Shown piece after piece: positions 4,677-33,360 of a DNA stretch of 37,646 nt. A program made the position numbers and the translations under genes. The stretch comes from Rhodospirillaceae bacterium (GTDB taxonomy: Bacteria > Pseudomonadota > Alphaproteobacteria > Azospirillales > Azospirillaceae). The notes under the pieces are model-generated. The model was not told where the DNA came from and made no database searches. It saw nothing but the letters and a program-made list of their open reading frames with translations. The stretch is from NCBI GenBank assembly GCA_029267445.1, contig JAJUIU010000035.1, forward strand, positions 1 to 37,646. The letters run 5' to 3'. Each line of letters begins with the position of its first letter. Position 1 is the stretch's first letter.

Positions 4677-7600
4677 TGACCAATCGCCATGTCGGCCCCC
4701 GTCTTTCTGTGGAGCGGCTTGCTCGCGAGCTTGCTCGTACCGATCGCCGCCTGACGACCATTGAGACCGCCCCGCAACTGGCGCACTCCTCGGTTGACGT
4801 GGATGGCGTGGACTACACGGTGCCGGACACTGTTCGGATCGGCAAGGATGCGGCGGAAGCGGCGGAAAACGCCCGCCAGTTCGTCGAACGGCTCGACCAG
4901 GAGTTGGCCGACGCTCGCACGGCGCTCGAAGAGGCCGACGCCGCTCTGCAGGACATGCTTGCCGACATTGATGTCGACATGGAGGAGCACCAGTCCCGCA
5001 TCGACGAGTTGCGCAACGTCACCATCCCGTCGCTTGAGAGCGACCTCGCCTCGGCCCGACAGGAGTTGGAGCAGGCGGACGCGGAACTCGACGAGCGCCT
5101 CGACGCTGCGCAGCGAGACCTCGCTGATCACGAGGATCAAATCGCCAACCTGCGCGATGTAACGATCCCTGGCGTCGAGAGTGACCTCGCTGATCACGAG
5201 GATCAAATCGCCAACCTCCGCGACGTTACCGTCCCCGGCATTGCCGACGACCTCGCCACGGCCCGACAGGAGTTGGAGCAGGCCGACCAGGGGCTCGACG
5301 AGCGCCTCGACGTGTTCGGCGGTCGTGTCGACGCCGTCGAGACCACCGCTAGCGATGCGGCTGCTGCTGCATCATCGGCACAGTCCGCTGCCGACGCCGC
5401 GACGGCCCGTGCTGACGAAGCCCGCGAAACCGCCGAAGAGGCCCTGCGCGGGCAAGCGAACCTCATGGCGGACGGTATGGTGCAGCCGTCCGTCGCCCTC
5501 GCGGGCGGCGTCATCCGGTGGGCCGCGTACCAGGGAACCGACGAGGTCACGCTCTACCGCAACGGAACCCCCGTTGAGCGCGACGGCAGCGGCCCCATCT
5601 TTTCCCTTTCGACGGACCCCGGCGATGTCCTCACGGCAGACGGCCCCGTCGCGTTGTGGTCCGATGAGTTGCGCGCCGCGTTGCCGCCCCTGTCGTGGGC
5701 ATCGCGTGAGTTCGTAATCGGCGTCCCGGCCAACGCCTCCCCATACCAGTTTTTCGTGTATGCGCCGTTCTCGGCAGCCGATGTCACCGCAACACAGGAC
5801 GATGACCCGGAAGCTGCCGAGACGTTCAAGGTGCAGGCGGGGACCACTACGGTCCTGAGCGGCAAGGGCTCCGGTAAGTGGCAGTTCGTTTCCGACGAGC
5901 GCGTCCTCGTCGGGTGGCGTGGTTACGGCGGCAACCGCTCTGACGTTGCCCGTCCACCGCACCGCTACAACCTCGTCTACCGGGGCGGCGGTCAGGATCG
6001 TGTGGCCACTACGCCGGACGCCACTGCGACCGCCACGTCGGCAACGGGCGACGGGTACGGCACCAACGCCGTCCTCCTCGATTGGGGAGAGGGCAACAAG
6101 GGCTCCGTCTACCCGAGTGCGGACGGGTCCGGTAACGATATGGAGACCGGCGCTACGCCGGACACCATCTCCGACTTCTACGGCCTCCCGCACGCACTCA
6201 GCGACTACGCCCTCATGGCCGTAGAGCCGACCATCGTTCGCGTCGAGGGCTGGAACGGTGAGGAGTGGGTGCTCCGCAACGAGCACGACTTCTCGGCGGC
6301 TTCCTACGAGGCCCCGATGGGTTCTCAGGTCGGCAACCCCGGAGGCGGCGGCTCGAACTTCACCGTCGAAGGGCCGGACGGCACGGACGTTGAGCCCTCC
6401 TACTGGCGACTCCGGGGTACGGGCAAGTTCTACGCCCGGACGAACCGAGGGACGCGCGAGTACGCCCCGGTCGGCTTCAACGCAACCACCTACGTCCCCG
6501 GCACGGACCCGACGGGCGCAGCCGCGCTCCGTCAGGCCGTCCAGGCGGCGCAGGATGCTGCCGCAGCACAGGACCGCGCCGAGGAGGCGCACAGCCTCGC
6601 AGGCACCGCCGAGAGTAATGCACAGACCGCCATCGCGGCGGCAGGTGCAGCGCAAGAGGCGGCGGACTCCAAGCCACTTCTCCTGAAGGACACGTCCGGG
6701 CCGACCGGCACCGCCCCGGTTGGGTCCGTGTGGTGGCAGGTCGACAGCAATAGCCAAATCATCGGTCAATGGCAGCGCACCGAGTCTGGGTGGCAGGAGC
6801 GCGAGATCCGCTCCGAGGTCATCGCCAACCTCGATGTCGGTAAGCTGACCGCGACCGACGCCACCATTGCCGAGGCCGTGATTGAGAAGTTGTGGGCCGA
6901 GGTTATCCACGCCCGCAAGATCACGTCCGACATGCTTGTCGTGGGCAACTCCTCCAACCTCGTCGACAACCCTGGCCTCTCTGGCGGCAGCATGGACGGG
7001 TGGGAGGTCGTCAGCGGGGCGTGGACTGTCGTCAGCTCCGAGGTGCGTAACGTCCTCCGTACCACCATCTTTAACGGCGGTTTGATTCGGAACCTCCGAC
7101 GTTTCGATTGTGTCCCCGGCGACCAGTACCGGTTCGCGGCGTCCATCCGTGGCGCGGGGTCGGGGGACAAGATCGCACGGATTAGGTGGTACGACTCTGA
7201 CGGTGTGGACCTGGACGCCTCGACGGAGTTGTCCGCTCATGGTCACGGGTGGACCGACCGGTCCACGACGGCTACCGCCCCCGCTGGTGCCTTCTCCGGT
7301 CAGTTAGAGTTCGAGGTCGTCCGAACCGGAAGCACCAACTACGAAGTCATGTTCGCGACCCCGGAGATCCGGCCCATGACCGGCCCGGCGCTCATCGTCG
7401 ACGGTGCCGTGACGGCAGACAAGGTCGACGCTGAATCCGTCGCGGCAGCGGTCGGTACGTTCCTCGACTTGTCCGCCGAGCAGATCACGTCAGGCACCAT
7501 CGACACCGCCCGCCTCAATGCGCAAGAGGTCGCCTCTGCCGTCGGTACGTTTCTGGAGCTCACCACGGACCAGCTCGTCGCCGGTGATGCGACGATCGGT

Positions 7601-9427
7601 GAGGCCGTAATTGAAAAGCTGTGGGCGGACGTGATTCGCGCCCGCAAGATCACGTCGGATATGCTGGTCATCGGCGGAACGCGCCTCATTGATAACCCCA
7701 TCTTCGAGCCGGACGATTCTGGCTCTTGGGGTCCGGGCTGGCTGCATCCGTCTGAAGACTCTACCGCGCGCGGTACGGCGGAGTTTTACAAGCCGGACGA
7801 CTTGGACGCTAACGCCGTCCGGTTCATGTCCGATGGCGAAAACGGCATGCTCATTAACATGCCTAACACCCGCCGCGCTGCAGTTACGCCCGGACAAGAG
7901 GTCCGCGTCGCAGCCGACGTTAAGGTCCCGGACGGCCCCGGTGTTATCTTCGGGATCAATTTCCGCGACCGGGATGGCAACCTCGCCAACAACGGCTCGG
8001 CAATCACCGTCCCGTCGACCGGTAACGTGTGGGAGCGGTTCGAAGCTTCGTTCGTCGTTCCTGACGACGGATCGACCACGATGGAATTCGTCATCGCTGC
8101 GATCCTCGGCACCGGTTCCGCTACCGTTTCGATCTCCAACGTCGACATGCGACCGAAGACCGGCCCCGAGCTGATCGTGGACGGCGCCGTTGCGGCCCGC
8201 CACGTGAACGCCGAATCGGTCGCCGGTGCGGTCGGTACGTTCCTCGACTTGTCCGCTGACCAGATCACGTCGGGCACGATTAGCGCCGACCGCCTCAACG
8301 CGCAAGAGGTCGCCGCCCACGTCGGCGGCTTCCTGGAGATCACCACGGATCAGCTCATCGCTGGGTCAGCGATCATCTCCGACGCCGTTGCCGAAAAGCT
8401 CATCTCCGAGGTCGTCGAAGCCAAGACCATCACCGGTGCCACGATCCGCACTGCCCCGTCTGGCGCCCGTGCGGAGCTGAACGCTGCCGATGGGTTGACG
8501 CTTTACAACGACAACAACGATGCGGTCTTCTCGGCTGATTCAAACGGCGACCTGGAGATCGTTGGCAATCTCTCGCAGGTGAACGCTACGGGCCGCATGG
8601 TCACCGGCGCCGACCTGTTCGGTCCGGCCAGCACGTCACCAGGCATCCGTTTCGACGACGCCAGCGGCAACATGACGCAGCCGGGTGGGGTCGCGTACGG
8701 CGACTTCCGCAGCTTGGTTTACGACGGCGGCGGGGGTTCCAACTACGGCACGTTCCTGGTTTCGCCCGAAATCAGCACCGCGCCTGGTCGCCGCACGGTC
8801 GCAGCCGTGACCACTGGCGGCTTCGTCGTCAACTCCGTGCAGGGCACCGAAGAGGCCGGGATTAACATCTCGCCTGCTGGCGTCGGCTTGTACGGCGGTG
8901 GCTTCACGGTCGGCATCGGTGATGACGGGATCACGTTCAACGAAACGCCGCTGCAGGGGCCGCATTGGTACGGGACGCTCACGGTGGATCAGCCGTTGGG
9001 GACAGGCTGGTCGGCGGTGTCGTGGTACGACGGCGAATCCACCATCCACACCGACGGTGGCTTCAGTCGGAACGGTACATGGAACGAGCTTGTCGTCCCG
9101 ACGCGCGGTAGGTACCAGATCGTTTTCCATTGCGTGTTCCCGCCGCCCAACGCACACAACGACTCCAGTTCTGCCATGAACGGACGCGGCGGGTCGCGGC
9201 TCATGGTTAACGGGTCCGTCCGCGTCGCCGGACCATCGGCATTCCCCGTCATCGGCGGTTACTCGTTCAGCTCGCAGTTGATAACCACGGAGATTTTGAA
9301 CCCCGGCGACGTTATCAGCTTCGCCGCGATCCGTACCGTCGTGAATGACCCGAAGGTCTTTTCCGGCAACCCGTCCAACCCCGCGACGCAGGTTCGCATC
9401 GACTACCTCGGCCCCGTGTGGGACTGA
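4676..9427 (+). CDS. Large modular tail tip / tail fibre protein
   Basis: A 1,583-residue protein. The frame is open further upstream, but the ATG at 4676 overlaps the previous stop (TAATG) and has GAAGGTG in front, so it is chosen. The order is: residues ~1-260, a coiled coil with repeated QELEQAD/LDERLD heptads and a duplicated 22-residue unit; ~270-640, beta-rich domain(s); ~640-735, Ala-rich helices; ~735-1180, two copies of a module made of an IEKLWA-VI-ARKITSDML stalk, a jelly-roll-like domain (resembling carbohydrate-binding CBM_4_9) and a VDGAV...AVGTFLDLS linker; ~1180-1583, a C-terminal region ending in a beta-rich, C1q-like head. This layout suits host-surface binding at the tail tip. 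Codon use is richer in CGN and GTC than in the four genes before it, which suggests module exchange. Confidence 0.8.
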   Translation: MTNRHVGPRLSVERLARELARTDRRLTTIETAPQLAHSSVDVDGVDYTVPDTVRIGKDAAEAAENARQFVERLDQELADARTALEEADAALQDMLADIDVDMEEHQSRIDELRNVTIPSLESDLASARQELEQADAELDERLDAAQRDLADHEDQIANLRDVTIPGVESDLADHEDQIANLRDVTVPGIADDLATARQELEQADQGLDERLDVFGGRVDAVETTASDAAAAASSAQSAADAATARADEARETAEEALRGQANLMADGMVQPSVALAGGVIRWAAYQGTDEVTLYRNGTPVERDGSGPIFSLSTDPGDVLTADGPVALWSDELRAALPPLSWASREFVIGVPANASPYQFFVYAPFSAADVTATQDDDPEAAETFKVQAGTTTVLSGKGSGKWQFVSDERVLVGWRGYGGNRSDVARPPHRYNLVYRGGGQDRVATTPDATATATSATGDGYGTNAVLLDWGEGNKGSVYPSADGSGNDMETGATPDTISDFYGLPHALSDYALMAVEPTIVRVEGWNGEEWVLRNEHDFSAASYEAPMGSQVGNPGGGGSNFTVEGPDGTDVEPSYWRLRGTGKFYARTNRGTREYAPVGFNATTYVPGTDPTGAAALRQAVQAAQDAAAAQDRAEEAHSLAGTAESNAQTAIAAAGAAQEAADSKPLLLKDTSGPTGTAPVGSVWWQVDSNSQIIGQWQRTESGWQEREIRSEVIANLDVGKLTATDATIAEAVIEKLWAEVIHARKITSDMLVVGNSSNLVDNPGLSGGSMDGWEVVSGAWTVVSSEVRNVLRTTIFNGGLIRNLRRFDCVPGDQYRFAASIRGAGSGDKIARIRWYDSDGVDLDASTELSAHGHGWTDRSTTATAPAGAFSGQLEFEVVRTGSTNYEVMFATPEIRPMTGPALIVDGAVTADKVDAESVAAAVGTFLDLSAEQITSGTIDTARLNAQEVASAVGTFLELTTDQLVAGDATIGEAVIEKLWADVIRARKITSDMLVIGGTRLIDNPIFEPDDSGSWGPGWLHPSEDSTARGTAEFYKPDDLDANAVRFMSDGENGMLINMPNTRRAAVTPGQEVRVAADVKVPDGPGVIFGINFRDRDGNLANNGSAITVPSTGNVWERFEASFVVPDDGSTTMEFVIAAILGTGSATVSISNVDMRPKTGPELIVDGAVAARHVNAESVAGAVGTFLDLSADQITSGTISADRLNAQEVAAHVGGFLEITTDQLIAGSAIISDAVAEKLISEVVEAKTITGATIRTAPSGARAELNAADGLTLYNDNNDAVFSADSNGDLEIVGNLSQVNATGRMVTGADLFGPASTSPGIRFDDASGNMTQPGGVAYGDFRSLVYDGGGGSNYGTFLVSPEISTAPGRRTVAAVTTGGFVVNSVQGTEEAGINISPAGVGLYGGGFTVGIGDDGITFNETPLQGPHWYGTLTVDQPLGTGWSAVSWYDGESTIHTDGGFSRNGTWNELVVPTRGRYQIVFHCVFPPPNAHNDSSSAMNGRGGSRLMVNGSVRVAGPSAFPVIGGYSFSSQLITTEILNPGDVISFAAIRTVVNDPKVFSGNPSNPATQVRIDYLGPVWD
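5117..5217 (+). repeat. Direct repeat within the coiled-coil coding region (66-bp period)
   Basis: A 35-nt sequence at 5117-5151 recurs identically at 5183-5217, exactly 66 bp (22 codons) later. It encodes DLADHEDQIANL twice in the stalk of the fibre protein. In-frame duplication fits stalk-length variation by slippage or recombination. Confidence 0.85.
7448..8256 (+). repeat. 780-bp spaced direct repeat of fibre module linkers
   Basis: The 29-nt segment at 7448-7476 recurs exactly at 8228-8256, 780 bp (260 codons) on. The flanking sequence (IVDGAV, QITSGTI, LNAQEVA) is also similar between copies. It marks an internal duplication of a stalk plus jelly-roll module in the tail fibre gene. Confidence 0.8.
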
Positions 9428-16517: not shown

Positions 16518-17345
16518 ATGAGTGAACTGGCGCAGAGTGTCGCGGCCCTCCGGTTCCTTTCGGAGATCGGGGCCGACGAGGCGGTGAACGACGATCCGAC
16601 GGACTGGACGGCCGTCGGCGCCCGCGCGCGCAGGCCGACCCCACCGCCGGCTGCCCCGGTCCAGCAGCCCGCGCGCGCACCGGCGCGTCCGGCCGGAAAC
16701 CTGGACGGGGCGCCGCTGGGCACGGCCGAATCCGCCCAGATGGCGCGGGCGGCGGCGGGTGCCGCGAAGACGCTGGACGAACTGAAGGCGGCGCTGGCGG
16801 CGTTCGAGGGCTGCGCGCTCAAGCACACGGCCACGAACCTCGTCTTCGCGGACGGGAACCCGCAGGCGCGCGTGATGCTGGTGGGCGAAGCGCCGGGCGA
16901 GCAGGAGGACCGGCAGGGCCTGCCATTCGTGGGACCGGCGGGCATGCTGCTGGACCGGATGCTGGCCTGCGTCGGCCTGGACCGGAAGGCGGAGGACCCC
17001 GCCAAGGCCGTCTACATCACCAACATGCTGCCCTGGCGCCCGCCCGGCAACCGCAGCCCGACGGACGGGGAGATCGCCGCCTGCCTGCCCTTCATGGAAC
17101 GGCACATCGAACTGATGAAGCCCGATCTGCTGGTGTTCCTGGGCGGGATCAGCGCCAAGTCCCTGCTGGCCCGTCCGGAGGGCATCACCCGGCTGCGCGG
17201 GCGGTGGTTCGAGTACAAGGCGCCGGGAATGGCGGCGGCGGTGCCGGCGATGCCGATGCTGCACCCGGCATACCTGCTGCGGAACCCGGTGGCGAAGCGG
17301 GAGGCATGGAAGGACTGGCTGGCGCTGAGCGAGCGATTGGGCTAG
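16518..17345 (+). CDS. Uracil-DNA glycosylase, family 4-like
   Basis: A 275-residue DNA repair enzyme that removes uracil from DNA. Motif 1 GEAPGEQED is at ~123-131 and motif 2 HPAYLLR has H249. Between them are [17 protein letters not shown] and [18 protein letters not shown], typical of the family 4/5 group. The first ~90 residues are low-complexity (Ala/Pro/Arg), as in alphaproteobacterial members. In the classical family the Fe-S cluster is bound partly by a CxxC before motif 1. Here only one Cys (C99, [10 protein letters not shown]) is seen at that site, so cluster binding is uncertain. The stop codon overlaps that of the convergent GxxExxY gene in a CTAG. Confidence 0.9.
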
Positions 17346-17734
17346 CGCACGATCCTGTGGATGCCGTCCTTGATCAGGGCGACATTGAAGTTGATCAGCA
17401 GCCCAAGGCGAATGCCCGTGAGCTTCAGGTATGTCATGAGCTGGGCCCTGTGGACCGGCAAGAGATGGTCGACGACCTTCAATTCCACCACGAGGACGTC
17501 GGCAACGACGAGATCCAGTCGCAGCCCGGTATCGATCATTTCGCCGTCATATCGAACCGGAACGGATTTCTGACGCTGGAATGGGATAGCACGCTTGCCG
17601 AGTTCATGAACGAGGCAGGCCTCGTAGACCGATTCAAGCAGGCCCGGACCCAACTCCCTGTGCACCTTGAAGGCGCTGTCGACGACCTCGCGGGCCGCGG
17701 CCTCGATTTCCGGGGATAACGAGCTTACCGCCAT
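17342..17734 (-). CDS. GxxExxY family protein (PD-(D/E)XK nuclease-like)
   Basis: A 130-residue protein with the family-defining motif in [11 protein letters not shown] (G31, E34, Y37). A PD-(D/E)XK-like core follows: D74 in LRLDLVV, then ELK (E84, K86), and a helix with [11 protein letters not shown] (Q98). The family is widespread but functionally unknown, and its fold class suggests a nuclease. The C-terminus [20 protein letters not shown] is also typical. The start at 17734 has AGGG upstream. Its stop overlaps the convergent glycosylase stop (CTAG). Upstream, 27 nt from its start codon, is a 165-bp palindromic element (17762-17926) and then the dioxygenase gene on the same strand. The gene appears intact. 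Confidence 0.88.
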
Positions 17735-17761
17735 GAAGTGAGCCCTGCCGTTCCATGGCTA

Positions 17762-17926
17762 TTTTCCACCACAAAGACACGAAGACACAAAGTCCTTCTG
17801 CTCGCCAAAGAGGTTCGGCGGTTCACTTTCTCGAGCCGGCGGAGCCGGCTCATTCGATGATGGGAAGAGCGCCGCTTGCGGGGCATCACCGCCCCCTTTG
17901 TGTCTTGGTGTCTTTGTGGTGGAAAA
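17762..17926. repeat. Palindromic element A with octamer-array arms
   Basis: The left arm 17762-17792 and right arm 17896-17926 are inverted copies (30 of 31 positions match). Each arm is built of an 8-bp unit, CACAAAGA/CACGAAGA, and begins TTTTCCAC. The middle holds a perfect hairpin, GAGCCGGC (17833-17840), loop GGA, GCCGGCTC (17844-17851). It fills most of the 232-nt gap between the GxxExxY and dioxygenase genes and could form a long stem-loop in RNA. Confidence 0.85.
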
Positions 17927-17966
17927 CCAAGTTCTCCAACGTGCTCCGGCCCCACAGGACCGTCGC

Positions 17967-18824
17967 TCAGAACCCCCGCGCCGGGAAGGACGGGGGGCGT
18001 TGGAGCCAGTTGTCGGCGGGGTAGCTGGCGGCGGCGTCGACGCAGTGGACTGCGTAGGCGTGGCGGGAGCGGTCGGAGGTGTTGGGGCCAGACAGGTGCG
18101 GCAACAGGCCGTGCAGGACGATGAGGGTTCCGGCCTTCGCCTCCAGCGGGACATAGCCGTTCTCCGGCGACACGGGCGGCCAGGGGGTGGGGTCCAGCAC
18201 GTCCATGCGCACACCGCCCCCGGGCCTGCGCACGAAGCGGGACTTCAGCCCCGCCCGGTGGCCGCCGGGCAGCGCCCACATGCAGCCATTGTCCACCGTC
18301 GCGTCCTGGAGCGCGAACCAGAGGCCGATGACGGTCGGCGGGTCGGAGTAGAGGAAGGTCGCGTCCTGGTGGCACACCACCTCGCCCCCGATGCGCGGCT
18401 GCTTAAAGATGTACATGGACTGCATCAGCAGCGGCCGCGCCATGCCGAGATCGGCCAGGAGATCGGCGAGGCGCGGATCGCGGGAGAAGCGGTCGAAGGC
18501 CGGGTCGCGGTCGTGCAGGGCGTGGCCGATCTTGTTGATGGAAAGGTCCAGCGGCTGGCGGAGCGACCCGTCGGGCGCAAACGCCCCCTCCTCGAAGAAG
18601 CAGCGCACCTGGTCGCCGGAGGTGAGGAACCAGTCGTCGCTCGTCTTCTCCTGGTTCACGGTGGAGAAGACGCTTGCTGCCTCCGCCGGGTCGAAGCCGG
18701 CCACGATGTCGCCCGCGCGACGGATGAGGGCGGCGCAGTCGGCCGGGCTCGCGAAATCCTCGATCACGAGGAAACCGTCCCGATCGAAGGCGGCGCGGCG
18801 GTGGGAGGCGGTGTCGAGGGGCAT
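17967..18824 (-). CDS. Phytanoyl-CoA dioxygenase family protein
   Basis: A 285-residue Fe(II)/2-oxoglutarate-dependent oxygenase-like protein. The metal triad is visible as HQD (H152, D154) and H243 in LPHLSGPNTSDRSRH; Arg252/254 is positioned to bind 2-oxoglutarate. The N-terminal RAAFDRDGFLVIEDF is the standard opening of the PhyH family. The substrate is not evident; relatives hydroxylate phytanoyl-CoA, ectoine or other small molecules. The start at 18824 has GGAAG upstream. The gene is bracketed by palindromic elements A and B, lies upstream of the GxxExxY gene on the same strand, and shows no sign of truncation. Confidence 0.87.
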   Translation of the reverse strand: MPLDTASHRRAAFDRDGFLVIEDFASPADCAALIRRAGDIVAGFDPAEAASVFSTVNQEKTSDDWFLTSGDQVRCFFEEGAFAPDGSLRQPLDLSINKIGHALHDRDPAFDRFSRDPRLADLLADLGMARPLLMQSMYIFKQPRIGGEVVCHQDATFLYSDPPTVIGLWFALQDATVDNGCMWALPGGHRAGLKSRFVRRPGGGVRMDVLDPTPWPPVSPENGYVPLEAKAGTLIVLHGLLPHLSGPNTSDRSRHAYAVHCVDAAASYPADNWLQRPPSFPARGF

Positions 18825-18873
18825 GGTCTTCCAGTGTCAACATGGGCAGGACGGCGCCTGCCCAAGGGCCGAT

Positions 18874-19054
18874 TTCAACACGAAGGCACGAAGACACAAA
18901 GGCACGAAGATGCCAAGGCGGCGGCGGCATGGGACCTTGGAGGCCCTATTGAGCCGGCCCGGGGCCGGCTCGGGCGAGCCATGCCGGAGAGCGCGTGCGT
19001 GGTCCCGAGCGCCAAATCCTTTGTGTCTTTGTGTCTTCATGCCTTCGTGTTGAA
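18874..19054. repeat. Palindromic element B with octamer-array arms
   Basis: The left arm 18874-18909 and right arm 19019-19054 are inverted copies (33 of 36 positions match). Each is an array of about four 8-bp units of form CACRAAGR preceded by TTCAA. The centre has a perfect hairpin, GAGCCGGCCC (18951-18960) and GGGCCGGCTC (18962-18971). It is clearly related to element A at 17762. It occupies most of the 304-nt gap between the dioxygenase gene and moaB. Confidence 0.85.
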
Positions 19055-19128
19055 GAGGCGGGGGCTTCCCACCGGCGCGCGGGTGGGGAATCATCCCGCC
19101 CGTGTTTCCGTCACGGATTGAGAGCCCC

Positions 19129-19674
19129 ATGGCCCGCATCGACGACACCCGCCCCTTCATCCCGGTGAACATCGCGGTCCTGACCGTGTCGGACACACGC
19201 GACCTGTCCACGGACAAGTCGGGCGACACGCTGGTGGAGCGGATCACGACGGACGGCCACACGGTCGTGGCGCGGGAGATCGTGAAGGACGATGTGGAGG
19301 CGATCGTCGCCAAGCTGCGCGGCTGGATCGCAGACCCGGCGGTGGACGTGGTGATCTCCACCGGCGGCACCGGCCTGACCGGGCGCGACGTGACGCCGGA
19401 GGCGTTCGACGCCGTGTTCGAGAAGCGGATCGACGGGTTCGGCGAGTTGTTCCGCCAGCTCAGCTACGAGAAAATCGGCACCAGCGCGCTGCAGAGCCGG
19501 TGCGTCGGCGGGCTGGCGGGCGGCACCTACCTGTTCGCCCTGCCCGGCAGCCCCGGCGCCTGCCGCGACGGCTGGGACCTGATCCTGAAATGGCAGCTCG
19601 ACAACCGGCACCGCCCCTGCAACCTGGTGGAGCTGATGCCCCGGCTGCTGGAGCATCAGAAGCCCAAGGCCTGA
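19129..19674 (+). CDS. moaB: Molybdenum cofactor biosynthesis protein B
   Basis: A 181-residue MoaB/MogA-family protein that binds molybdopterin and adenylylates it on the way to molybdenum cofactor. The key motif STGGTGLTGRD is at ~77-87, followed by VTPEAFDAVFEKRIDGFGELFR and the glycine-rich LPGSPGACRDGWDLIL near the C-terminus. The ATG at 19129 is preferred to an upstream GTG at 19102 because family homology (VNIAVLTVSDTR) begins soon after it; GAGAG precedes it. The 3' end overlaps the convergent glycosyltransferase gene by 19 nt. No other moa gene is in the window. Confidence is high for family, less for MoaB versus MogA role. Confidence 0.92.
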   Translation: MARIDDTRPFIPVNIAVLTVSDTRDLSTDKSGDTLVERITTDGHTVVAREIVKDDVEAIVAKLRGWIADPAVDVVISTGGTGLTGRDVTPEAFDAVFEKRIDGFGELFRQLSYEKIGTSALQSRCVGGLAGGTYLFALPGSPGACRDGWDLILKWQLDNRHRPCNLVELMPRLLEHQKPKA

Positions 19675-22154: not shown

Positions 22155-22310
22155 ACCGTTACCCCTCCCCCCCCTCGCTTGCGCTCGGGACCCTCTCCCG
22201 CAAGGGGAGAGGGAAAGGTTGGTATTTCAGAGACTTCGCCCGTCCCTTCCTCCCCCTGTGGGGGAGGGAGGGGCCCGCCGCGCAGTGGTGGGAGGGAGAG
22301 GGGTTACGGT
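22155..22310. repeat. Intergenic inverted-repeat element with nested hairpins
   Basis: Outer arms at 22155-22166 and 22299-22310 are inverted copies (11/12). Inside are a hairpin CCCTCTCCC (22191-22199) / GGGAGAGGG (22205-22213) and another, CCTCCCCC (22249-22256) / GGGGGAGG (22260-22267). The 23-bp core at 22191-22213 is identical to 27627-27649. This is a dispersed REP-like element in the 377-nt gap between convergent genes. Confidence 0.75.
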
Positions 22311-27596: not shown

Positions 27597-27796
27597 ACCC
27601 CTCACCCGGCTCACTCGCGTTCGCCACCCTCTCCCGCAAGGGGAGAGGGTTTACCGGGGCCACGGTCGATCCTGCGGGCACATGCTTGCTGCAAGAGACG
27701 GCGGCGGCCCAAGTTCCCCCTCTTCCCTTTCGGGAGAGGGTCCCGAGCGACGCCTCTGGCAGACGCCGGAGGCGACTAGCGAGGGGGGTGAGGGGT
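27597..27796. repeat. 200-bp intergenic inverted-repeat element
   Basis: Outer arms ACCCCTCACCC (27597-27607) and GGGTGAGGGGT (27786-27796) are perfect inverted copies. Inside is a 23-bp hairpin core (27627-27649) identical to that at 22191-22213, and a second GGGAGAGGGTCCCGAG block near 27733. It fills most of the 324-nt gap between two divergent genes. No gene is seen in it. Confidence 0.75.
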
Positions 27797-33257: not shown

Positions 33258-33360
33258 CACAAGGTCCTCATCCTTCGACAAGCTCAGGACGAGGACCTTG
33301 TGATGTGCTCCTGAGGATTTGGACAGGACCTCACCCTGAGCTTGTCGAAGGGCGAGGTCC
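33258..33360. repeat. Pair of inverted CCTTCGACAAGCTCAGG repeats
   Basis: Copy one is a hairpin with a perfect 12-bp stem, CACAAGGTCCTC (33258-33269) / GAGGACCTTGTG (33291-33302), and core CCTTCGACAAGCTCAGG (33272-33288). Copy two is inverted: GGACCTC (33326-33332) / GAGGTCC (33354-33360) with the reverse-complement core at 33335-33351. The core is a repeat often seen between genes of alphaproteobacteria. It lies in the 217-nt gap between ccrM and folB; the rest of that gap shows nothing clear. Confidence 0.8.

Follow-up and report, generated by a model that had tools for sequence, protein, structure and literature searches.

We analyzed a 37,646-nucleotide (nt) stretch of DNA, here called the window (contig JAJUIU010000035.1 of Rhodospirillaceae bacterium assembly GCA_029267445.1), in which a gene of the GxxExxY family lies next to palindromic elements built from arrays of a short unit. 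The gene (positions 17342 to 17734, minus strand) encodes a 130-amino-acid (aa) candidate PD-(D/E)XK nuclease belonging to clade I of the family, as defined below. The left arm of element A (17762 to 17792, plus strand) consists of the units CACAAAG, CACGAAG, and CACAAAG separated by single A residues, and the right arm (17896 to 17926) carries CACAAAG, CACCAAG, and CACAAAG on the minus strand; together they form an inverted repeat of 31 nt that is 97% complementary and encloses an inner palindrome, GAGCCGGC-GGA-GCCGGCTC (17833 to 17851). In element B, the left arm (18874 to 18909, plus strand), with the units CACGAAG, CACGAAG, CACAAAG, and CACGAAG separated by G, A, and G, is 36 nt long and 92% complementary to the 36-nt right arm (19019 to 19054, minus strand), and the inner palindrome GAGCCGGC...GCCGGCTC lies at 18951 to 18971. 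A first-pass annotation of this DNA had described the two elements as sharing one design, inverted arms of 8-nt CACRAAGR units, and had placed the start of element A 27 nt from the GxxExxY start codon; both descriptions were confirmed. Allowing at most one mismatch, CACRAAGRCACRAAG had 21 matches in the 4.23-Mb (megabase) genome to which the window belongs, and the reversed-pattern control had 0. These matches make up elements A and B, two gene-less hairpins on other contigs (C131:76835-76927 and C134:5642-5705), and a lone match on contig C44. The GAGCCGGC/GCCGGCTC hairpin core that had been noted in A and B is indeed present in both but is not a general feature, as the C131 and C134 elements lack the GAGCCGGC core. 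A known RNA was considered for this region and set aside: the sole Rfam match up to an E value of 1 in positions 17300 to 19100 fell far under the gathering score.

By curated cut-offs applied over its full length, the window protein is a GxxExxY family member. It scored 149.6 bits against TIGR04256 (cut-off, 35; E = 4e-44; model positions 3 to 116 of 116) and 145.4 bits against PF13366 (PDDEXK_3; cut-off, 22; E = 1e-42). These were the only Pfam and NCBIfam matches at an E value of ≤0.001, and no transposase family was among them. Residues D74, E84, K86, G29, G31, E34, Y37, and Q98 were invariant among 18 and among 52 aligned members, the larger alignment combining the window protein with 51 of the 80 loci, with L136 (which has a stop codon), L090, L108, and L155 left out. 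The suggestion that D74 and E84-x-K86 form a PD-(D/E)XK-like core was borne out in that 52/52 aligned members keep D...(D/E)-x-K, and by this motif we regard the protein as a candidate PD-(D/E)XK nuclease. A scan of the genomes of 84,980 species confirmed at least 575 proteins as related to the window protein. The best 80 of these at least 575 relatives (the genome_contigs loci), which lean to the window's own clade because they are the best matches, came from Pseudomonadota, Planctomycetota, Verrucomicrobiota, Acidobacteriota, Chloroflexota, Bacteroidota, Cyanobacteriota, archaea, and others. The family also extends outside the prokaryotes, given that one report has a GxxExxY gene in its table for an algal virus genome (PMC12085832). 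A phage, plasmid, or defense gene was ruled out as an identity for the window gene: used as a query, its protein matched 0 of 50,697 phage records and 7 of 72,556 plasmid records as well as 0 PADLOC-DB and 0 PHROGs families, and a search of IMG/VR with alignment A2 as the query gave 3 loci.

The window copy of the gene is atypical, having element A on its 5' side only and no 3' arm. On the 3' side, its stop codon overlaps that of a family 4 uracil-DNA glycosylase gene (16518 to 17345, plus strand; TIGR00758), and no arm is present. A PhyH-family gene (17967 to 18824, minus strand; PF05721) separates elements A and B, and a moaB-type gene (19102 to 19674, plus strand; TIGR02667) lies past element B. 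The four other GxxExxY genes of the same genome scored 61, 33, 59, and 54 on a word-free inverted-repeat measure computed here with 260-nt flanks, with a window control reaching 30 at 1 of 278 positions. The copy on contig C28 scored only 17 with 200-nt flanks because its left arm is farther out. Judged by eye, each of these four genes has its own word (CACGGAGG, a CACGGCG-like word, a CACGGACGG-like word, and CACAGATGGA), giving five GxxExxY genes and five words in one genome.

Elsewhere, the typical layout is a GxxExxY gene between inverted arrays of a short unit with a period of 8 to 10 nt. Relatives G053 and G048 have the gene flanked by inverted CACNAAG arrays, and the 30 GxxExxY loci taken from relatives included inverted arrays of other words, among them CACGGATTT, CACAGATGAA, CACGGAGG, and CACGGACAGG; a frequent form pairs TTNACCRCNRAGRCRCNRAG... 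with its inverse across the gene. At 73 of 110 loci (the 80 genome_contigs loci plus 30 from Verrucomicrobiota), at least two inward clade I units were found on both sides of the gene, compared to 0 of 550 control windows, and at least two such units on one side only were found at 17/110 loci and in 24/550 control windows. The inverted-repeat score, computed for this survey on two 200-nt flanks with a cut-off of ≥30, gave a similar picture. The cut-off was reached at 59 of 78 genome_contigs loci (the other two of the 80 lack 80 nt of flank) versus 1 of 234 random windows of those loci, at 25/30 Verrucomicrobiota loci versus 0/90 windows, and at 18/30 loci from relatives versus 0/90 windows; in a separate draw of random windows, 3 of 390 reached it. 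Where the gene is bracketed, both arms fall inside the roughly 260 nt to either side of its match and therefore leave little space for a second gene. The first-pass annotation had proposed that GxxExxY genes and octamer-array palindromes belong together and had named enrichment of the one near the other as a test. In the sampled genomes, the enrichment beside the gene (73/110 versus 0/550) supports this association, with the amendment that the typical layout places the gene between the arms. As a separate observation, the predicted start codon of six clade II copies (L028, L033, L035, L037, L039, and L050) lies inside the last arm unit, as CACGG-ATG or CATGG-ATG.

One explanation would make the gene a bystander: the arms would be hairpin terminators or insulators that gather at gene borders, and the gene would merely occupy the same intergenic niche. 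Many elements do lie soon after stop codons (judged by eye and uncounted), where such a hairpin can act as a terminator. However, inverted-repeat scores at the cut-off were rare both in the random windows (1/234) and in the flanks of other open reading frames (ORFs) (5/134). Moreover, the arrays, and not a perfect stem, seem to be conserved. Among the 24 elements (of 37) that could be scored, left-arm and right-arm spacer bases agreed in only 29 of 48 comparisons, and the mismatches included 9 of the G/T type and 10 of the A/C type. Duplex sites therefore seem likelier than a perfect stem, and a need for strict hairpin pairing was rejected. Position 4 of CACNAAG likewise differs between units within one genome. 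We consider the bystander explanation very improbable, and it also leaves unaccounted for the two kinds of coupling between arrays and proteins described below. By eye, the longer hairpins among elements L236 to L252 of genome G102 widen their spacers (1, then 2, then 2 to 3 nt), and the short ones keep 1 nt.

The first kind of coupling is that the word follows the protein clade. A tree of 137 proteins, built by a quick method from few columns and covering 137 of 140 rows (L045 to L047, partial or remote, were left out), separated two clades with SH-aLRT support of 98 on both sides. The clade I word is CRCNRAG, and clade II units end in GAT. Among the 25 clade II rows, 20 had GAT-type units, 0 had AG-type units, and 5 were unlabelled; the 112 clade I rows comprised 94 of the AG type, 1 of the GAT type (L113), and 17 unlabelled, including the window copy. 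There was therefore a single exception among 115 labelled rows, with 22 rows unlabelled. Both clades are present in the window's family and in Verrucomicrobiota. Within clade I, word distance (positions 2, 4, and 5) grew with protein distance (Mantel r = 0.20, p = 5e-4, 87 loci), and the result was the same after GC correction; the effect is small, and base composition is not its cause. CACRAAGR is not the only form of the unit; the word differs with the protein clade.

The second kind of coupling is genome wide: array class tracks gene class. We examined the 45 genomes of genus g11, in which the class of 33 above-cut-off family matches was assigned by the tree for 13 and by end motifs for 18 plus 2, and in which a sub-threshold match in G274 was scored as no gene. 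A clade I gene was present in seven genomes, one copy (G254, L308) having a stop codon. The counts of ACCACNAAGRCACNAAG in these seven genomes were 86, 67, 27, 27, 27, 8, and 7, and those in the 38 other genomes were 0 in 31, 1 to 3 in six, and 23 in G267. Across the 45 genomes, the count of clade I (CACNAAG) arrays was associated with the clade I gene (p = 6e-7) versus p = 0.41 for the clade II gene, and that of CACGGATNNCACGGAT (CACGGAT) arrays was associated with the clade II gene (p = 0.002) versus p = 0.34 for the clade I gene; related genomes entered the pattern and family counts as if independent, and the p values therefore overstate certainty. The crossed pattern, in which a gene tracks arrays of its own class and not those of the other, is a safer argument than the p values. 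Reversed-pattern controls for both array classes were 0 in 45/45 genomes. Among 144 Verrucomicrobiota genomes, 69 had a GxxExxY gene above the cut-off; the gene was present in 24 of 27 genomes with at least three array matches versus 45 of 117 others (p = 2e-6, with the same reservation), and 617 of 651 array matches fell in gene-bearing genomes. In the sample of relatives, 6 of 7 array-bearing genomes had a gene above the cut-off, compared to 25 of 99 overall. Element-rich genomes without the gene, which in large numbers would have spoken against the association as first proposed, were few, namely, 3/27 in the Verrucomicrobiota sample (at least three matches) and 1/8 in genus g11 (at least five matches). 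Terminators or insulators as the whole story were rejected because array class tracks its own protein clade only.

Many arrays stand apart from any GxxExxY gene. One Acidobacteria genome had 268 half-arm matches (controls, 0 and 1), and 52 dispersed elements fetched from two genomes with 86 and 268 half-arm matches were all gene-less. In G257, CACCAAG starts 31 of 35 fetched gene-less elements and is the same unit as that in the arms of the genome's own gene. The interiors of these elements are, by eye, of several types, so that the ends are the shared part. In a separate case, Verrucomicrobiota genome G112 had 147 array matches, several of them in tandem clusters, with an unusually high reversed-pattern control of 30.

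Near relatives differed in which elements they carry. For twelve clade II elements from G055, flanking sequence was sought in eight near relatives, and eight of the twelve were inspected. At 7 of these 8 loci, at least one relative keeps the flanking DNA without the element (the numbers of such relatives were 8 for L389, 7 for L382, 6 for L388, 3 for L380, 2 for L386, and 1 each for L384 and L387, with other sequence present at L384). The comparison of syntenic loci with and without the element that had been called for at the outset thus revealed presence and absence between near relatives. At L385, two relatives (L421 and L422) hold a shorter hairpin of the same class, which suggests a size change in place. 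A second setting is the gap between cobS and cobT in genus g11, read at 30 of 45 loci. Depending on the genome, this gap is occupied by a clade II element, by a different gene pair, or by a short remnant that retains outer pieces of the arms; the names cobS, cobT, AbrB, and PIN were assigned by reading the sequence. This gap may be a turnover hotspot of small, selfish-looking modules. G044 and G055 are 99.2% identical at the end of cobS and 98.0% identical at the start of cobT, but the element between is only 78.4% identical; the G055 element is 96.4% identical to that of G026. Because the element is so much more diverged than its flanks, one cassette appears to have replaced another at the same spot. 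The other gene pair at this gap looked like an AbrB/PIN toxin-antitoxin module and was seen at L210, L212, L215, L218 to L220, L233, and L234.

Exchange at a fixed site raises the question of homing or gene drive. In such a scheme, the nuclease would cut alleles with no element or with another one, recombination would copy the element in, the arms would protect the filled allele or regulate the gene, and the dispersed hairpins would be by-products. The 78.4% identity of the G044 and G055 elements between flanks of 99.2% and 98.0% fits this scheme, as does the finding that other near relatives have another small gene pair or a short remnant at the same spot. It is harder to reconcile with the dozens of gene-less copies that carry the same arms at other intergenic sites, with the few neighbors shared by the 80 genome_contigs loci (common to 26 of 3,160 pairs), and with the flanks, in which no common target sequence was noticed (by eye only). 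We think homing unlikely.

For GxxExxY genes of genus g11, the ratio of nonsynonymous to synonymous substitution rates (dN/dS) was 0.12 to 0.28 in 11 pairs of 7 genes, and these few pairs suggest purifying selection. Such selection is what one would expect if GxxExxY were a domesticated chromosomal factor for structuring, repair, or regulation, with the arrays being binding sites multiplied by other means and the gene autoregulated via its own arms. The near absence of the family from phage and plasmid records and the retention of one site through many species point in the same direction. Against a host function stand the patchy distribution (69/144 Verrucomicrobiota genomes and 25/45 g11 genomes), the occurrence of up to 12 family matches per genome (in the Verrucomicrobiota sample) and of several units in one genome, and the presence or absence of elements between near relatives. 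We judge a host function a little less likely even than homing.

We favor, as rather probable, the interpretation that GxxExxY genes and the arrays around them constitute one family of elements, either minimal mobile elements or their domesticated descendants, with the nuclease acting on its own arms. The observations behind this interpretation are the arrangement of gene and arms, their enrichment, the coupling of unit to clade and of arrays to same-class genes genome wide, presence and absence between relatives, cassette swapping, and purifying selection in a few gene pairs; that the nuclease binds and cuts the arms and causes the elements' dispersal we infer. A complete copy would consist of an ~130-codon gene between inverted arms, in each of which short spacers separate usually two to four units of 7 nt. 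Most likely, the nuclease recognizes the units in the arms of its own element, which would make recognition clade specific, and then draws the two arms together or acts on the hairpin or cruciform that they can form. Cleavage would follow at the ends of the element or close to them, possibly on an extruded cruciform, after which host repair would move, copy, or replace the element. A, B, and other gene-less hairpins, with arms alike and interiors not, would be nonautonomous copies resembling miniature inverted-repeat transposable elements (MITEs) that once relied on a matching nuclease in the genome.

Several findings weigh against this interpretation. The family profile matched no Protein Data Bank chain at an E value of ≤1, and no nuclease of the PD-(D/E)XK type is known to us to transpose DNA unaided. 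GxxExxY genes are nearly absent from plasmids and viruses. At 20/110 loci, some of which have clade II or other units, neither side of the gene had two or more inward clade I units, and 19/78, 5/30, and 12/30 gene copies in the three sets fell below the inverted-repeat cut-off. The window copy is among them, with a score of 18 with 200-nt flanks and 24 with 260-nt flanks, and 5/134 flanks of other ORFs reached the cut-off. The coupling of clade II is the weaker one (p = 0.002), and of the 23 genomes that lack a clade II gene, 14 still hold some arrays. Four array-rich genomes had no detected gene, namely, G267 (23 clade I and 55 clade II matches), G179 (15), G115 (6), and G249 (3), possibly because their arrays are orphans left after gene loss or because of assembly gaps. 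The clade II gene at cobS-cobT persists through many g11 species, as a resident gene would. Finally, no exact junctions or target-site duplications were found in three comparisons, in which junctions were not resolvable because the intergenic flanks change too fast.

The elements resemble several known systems without coinciding with any of them. Like insertion sequences and MITEs, they have a gene between terminal inverted repeats and gene-less copies that share the ends and not the interior. Unlike the case of insertion sequences, the product has no transposase family match, no target duplication was seen, and the ends are arrays of tandem units. PD-(D/E)XK homing endonucleases share the nuclease superfamily, and the replacement of one allele by another at a fixed site would agree with homing, but the GxxExxY gene has its own inverted arrays and gene-less derivatives at many sites. 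The closest likeness is to the REPtron, in which, according to one study, REP palindromes adjoin a tnpA-REP gene and also occur throughout the genome, mostly in intergenic DNA, and in which enzyme presence and repeat abundance often coincide (PMC8266576). Here too, the gene of a small DNA-processing enzyme is edged by cognate palindromes that occur genome wide in many gene-less copies, with arrays in place of REPs. The systems differ in that the GxxExxY enzyme is of the PD-(D/E)XK type by sequence, whereas TnpA-REP is an HUH-tyrosine enzyme (no HUH family match was found here), and in that the repeats are arrays of a short unit, whereas REPs are single stem-loops with a GTAG tag. Of 51 elements from G102 and G257, 7 had GTAG or CTAC in the 20 nt beyond the arms, where chance alone would give about 12. 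A genome can also contain several GxxExxY gene copies with different units (five in the window genome), in contrast to tnpA-REP, which the same study describes as mostly single copy (PMC8266576). The resemblance to REP/RAYT remarked on in the first-pass annotation therefore stands as an analogy, a gene with dispersed palindromes, and fails for the enzyme class and the tag.

The open-access literature on GxxExxY, TIGR04256, and PDDEXK_3/PF13366 yielded no function and no link to repeats, and no such link was seen among papers on REP- or MITE-type repeats; preprints and most subscription papers lay outside its scope, and an earlier description is possible. In one paper, GxxExxY comes up in passing as a gene called next to a reverse transcriptase. 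A paper on GTAG/CGTC palindromes treats these as tagged stem-loops and has the word "nuclease" only in one reference title (PMC3733652). In its broadest form, the proposal is of widespread minimal mobile elements, present in many bacterial phyla and in archaea, whose sole protein is an ~130-aa PD-(D/E)XK nuclease, with a code linking clade to word, several protein-word pairs and dozens to hundreds of gene-less hairpins per genome, and a second, independent invention of a REPtron-like system; we would give this broad form about an even chance. If it is true, a large uncharacterized nuclease family would gain a function and a substrate, the abundant octamer-array palindromes of bacterial intergenic DNA would gain an explanation, and a natural protein-to-word recognition code would be at hand. 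Should a lone PD-(D/E)XK nuclease drive the dispersal, DNA mobility would have a mechanism beyond the transposase types that we are aware of.

Other repeats were also present in the window. A palindromic family, CCCTCTCCC...GGGAGAGGG, ACCCTCACC, occurs at 22161 to 22222 and at 27597 to 27749, and it also occupies gaps in relatives (L286 to L303) where G048 has CACNAAG elements. An inverted repeat of 36 nt at 33263 to 33360, 83% complementary and containing CTTCGACAAGCTCAGG, is a possible dispersed palindrome. Diverged direct repeats of 66 to 257 nt, 74 to 85% identical, lie at 4976 to 5312 and 6857 to 8405.

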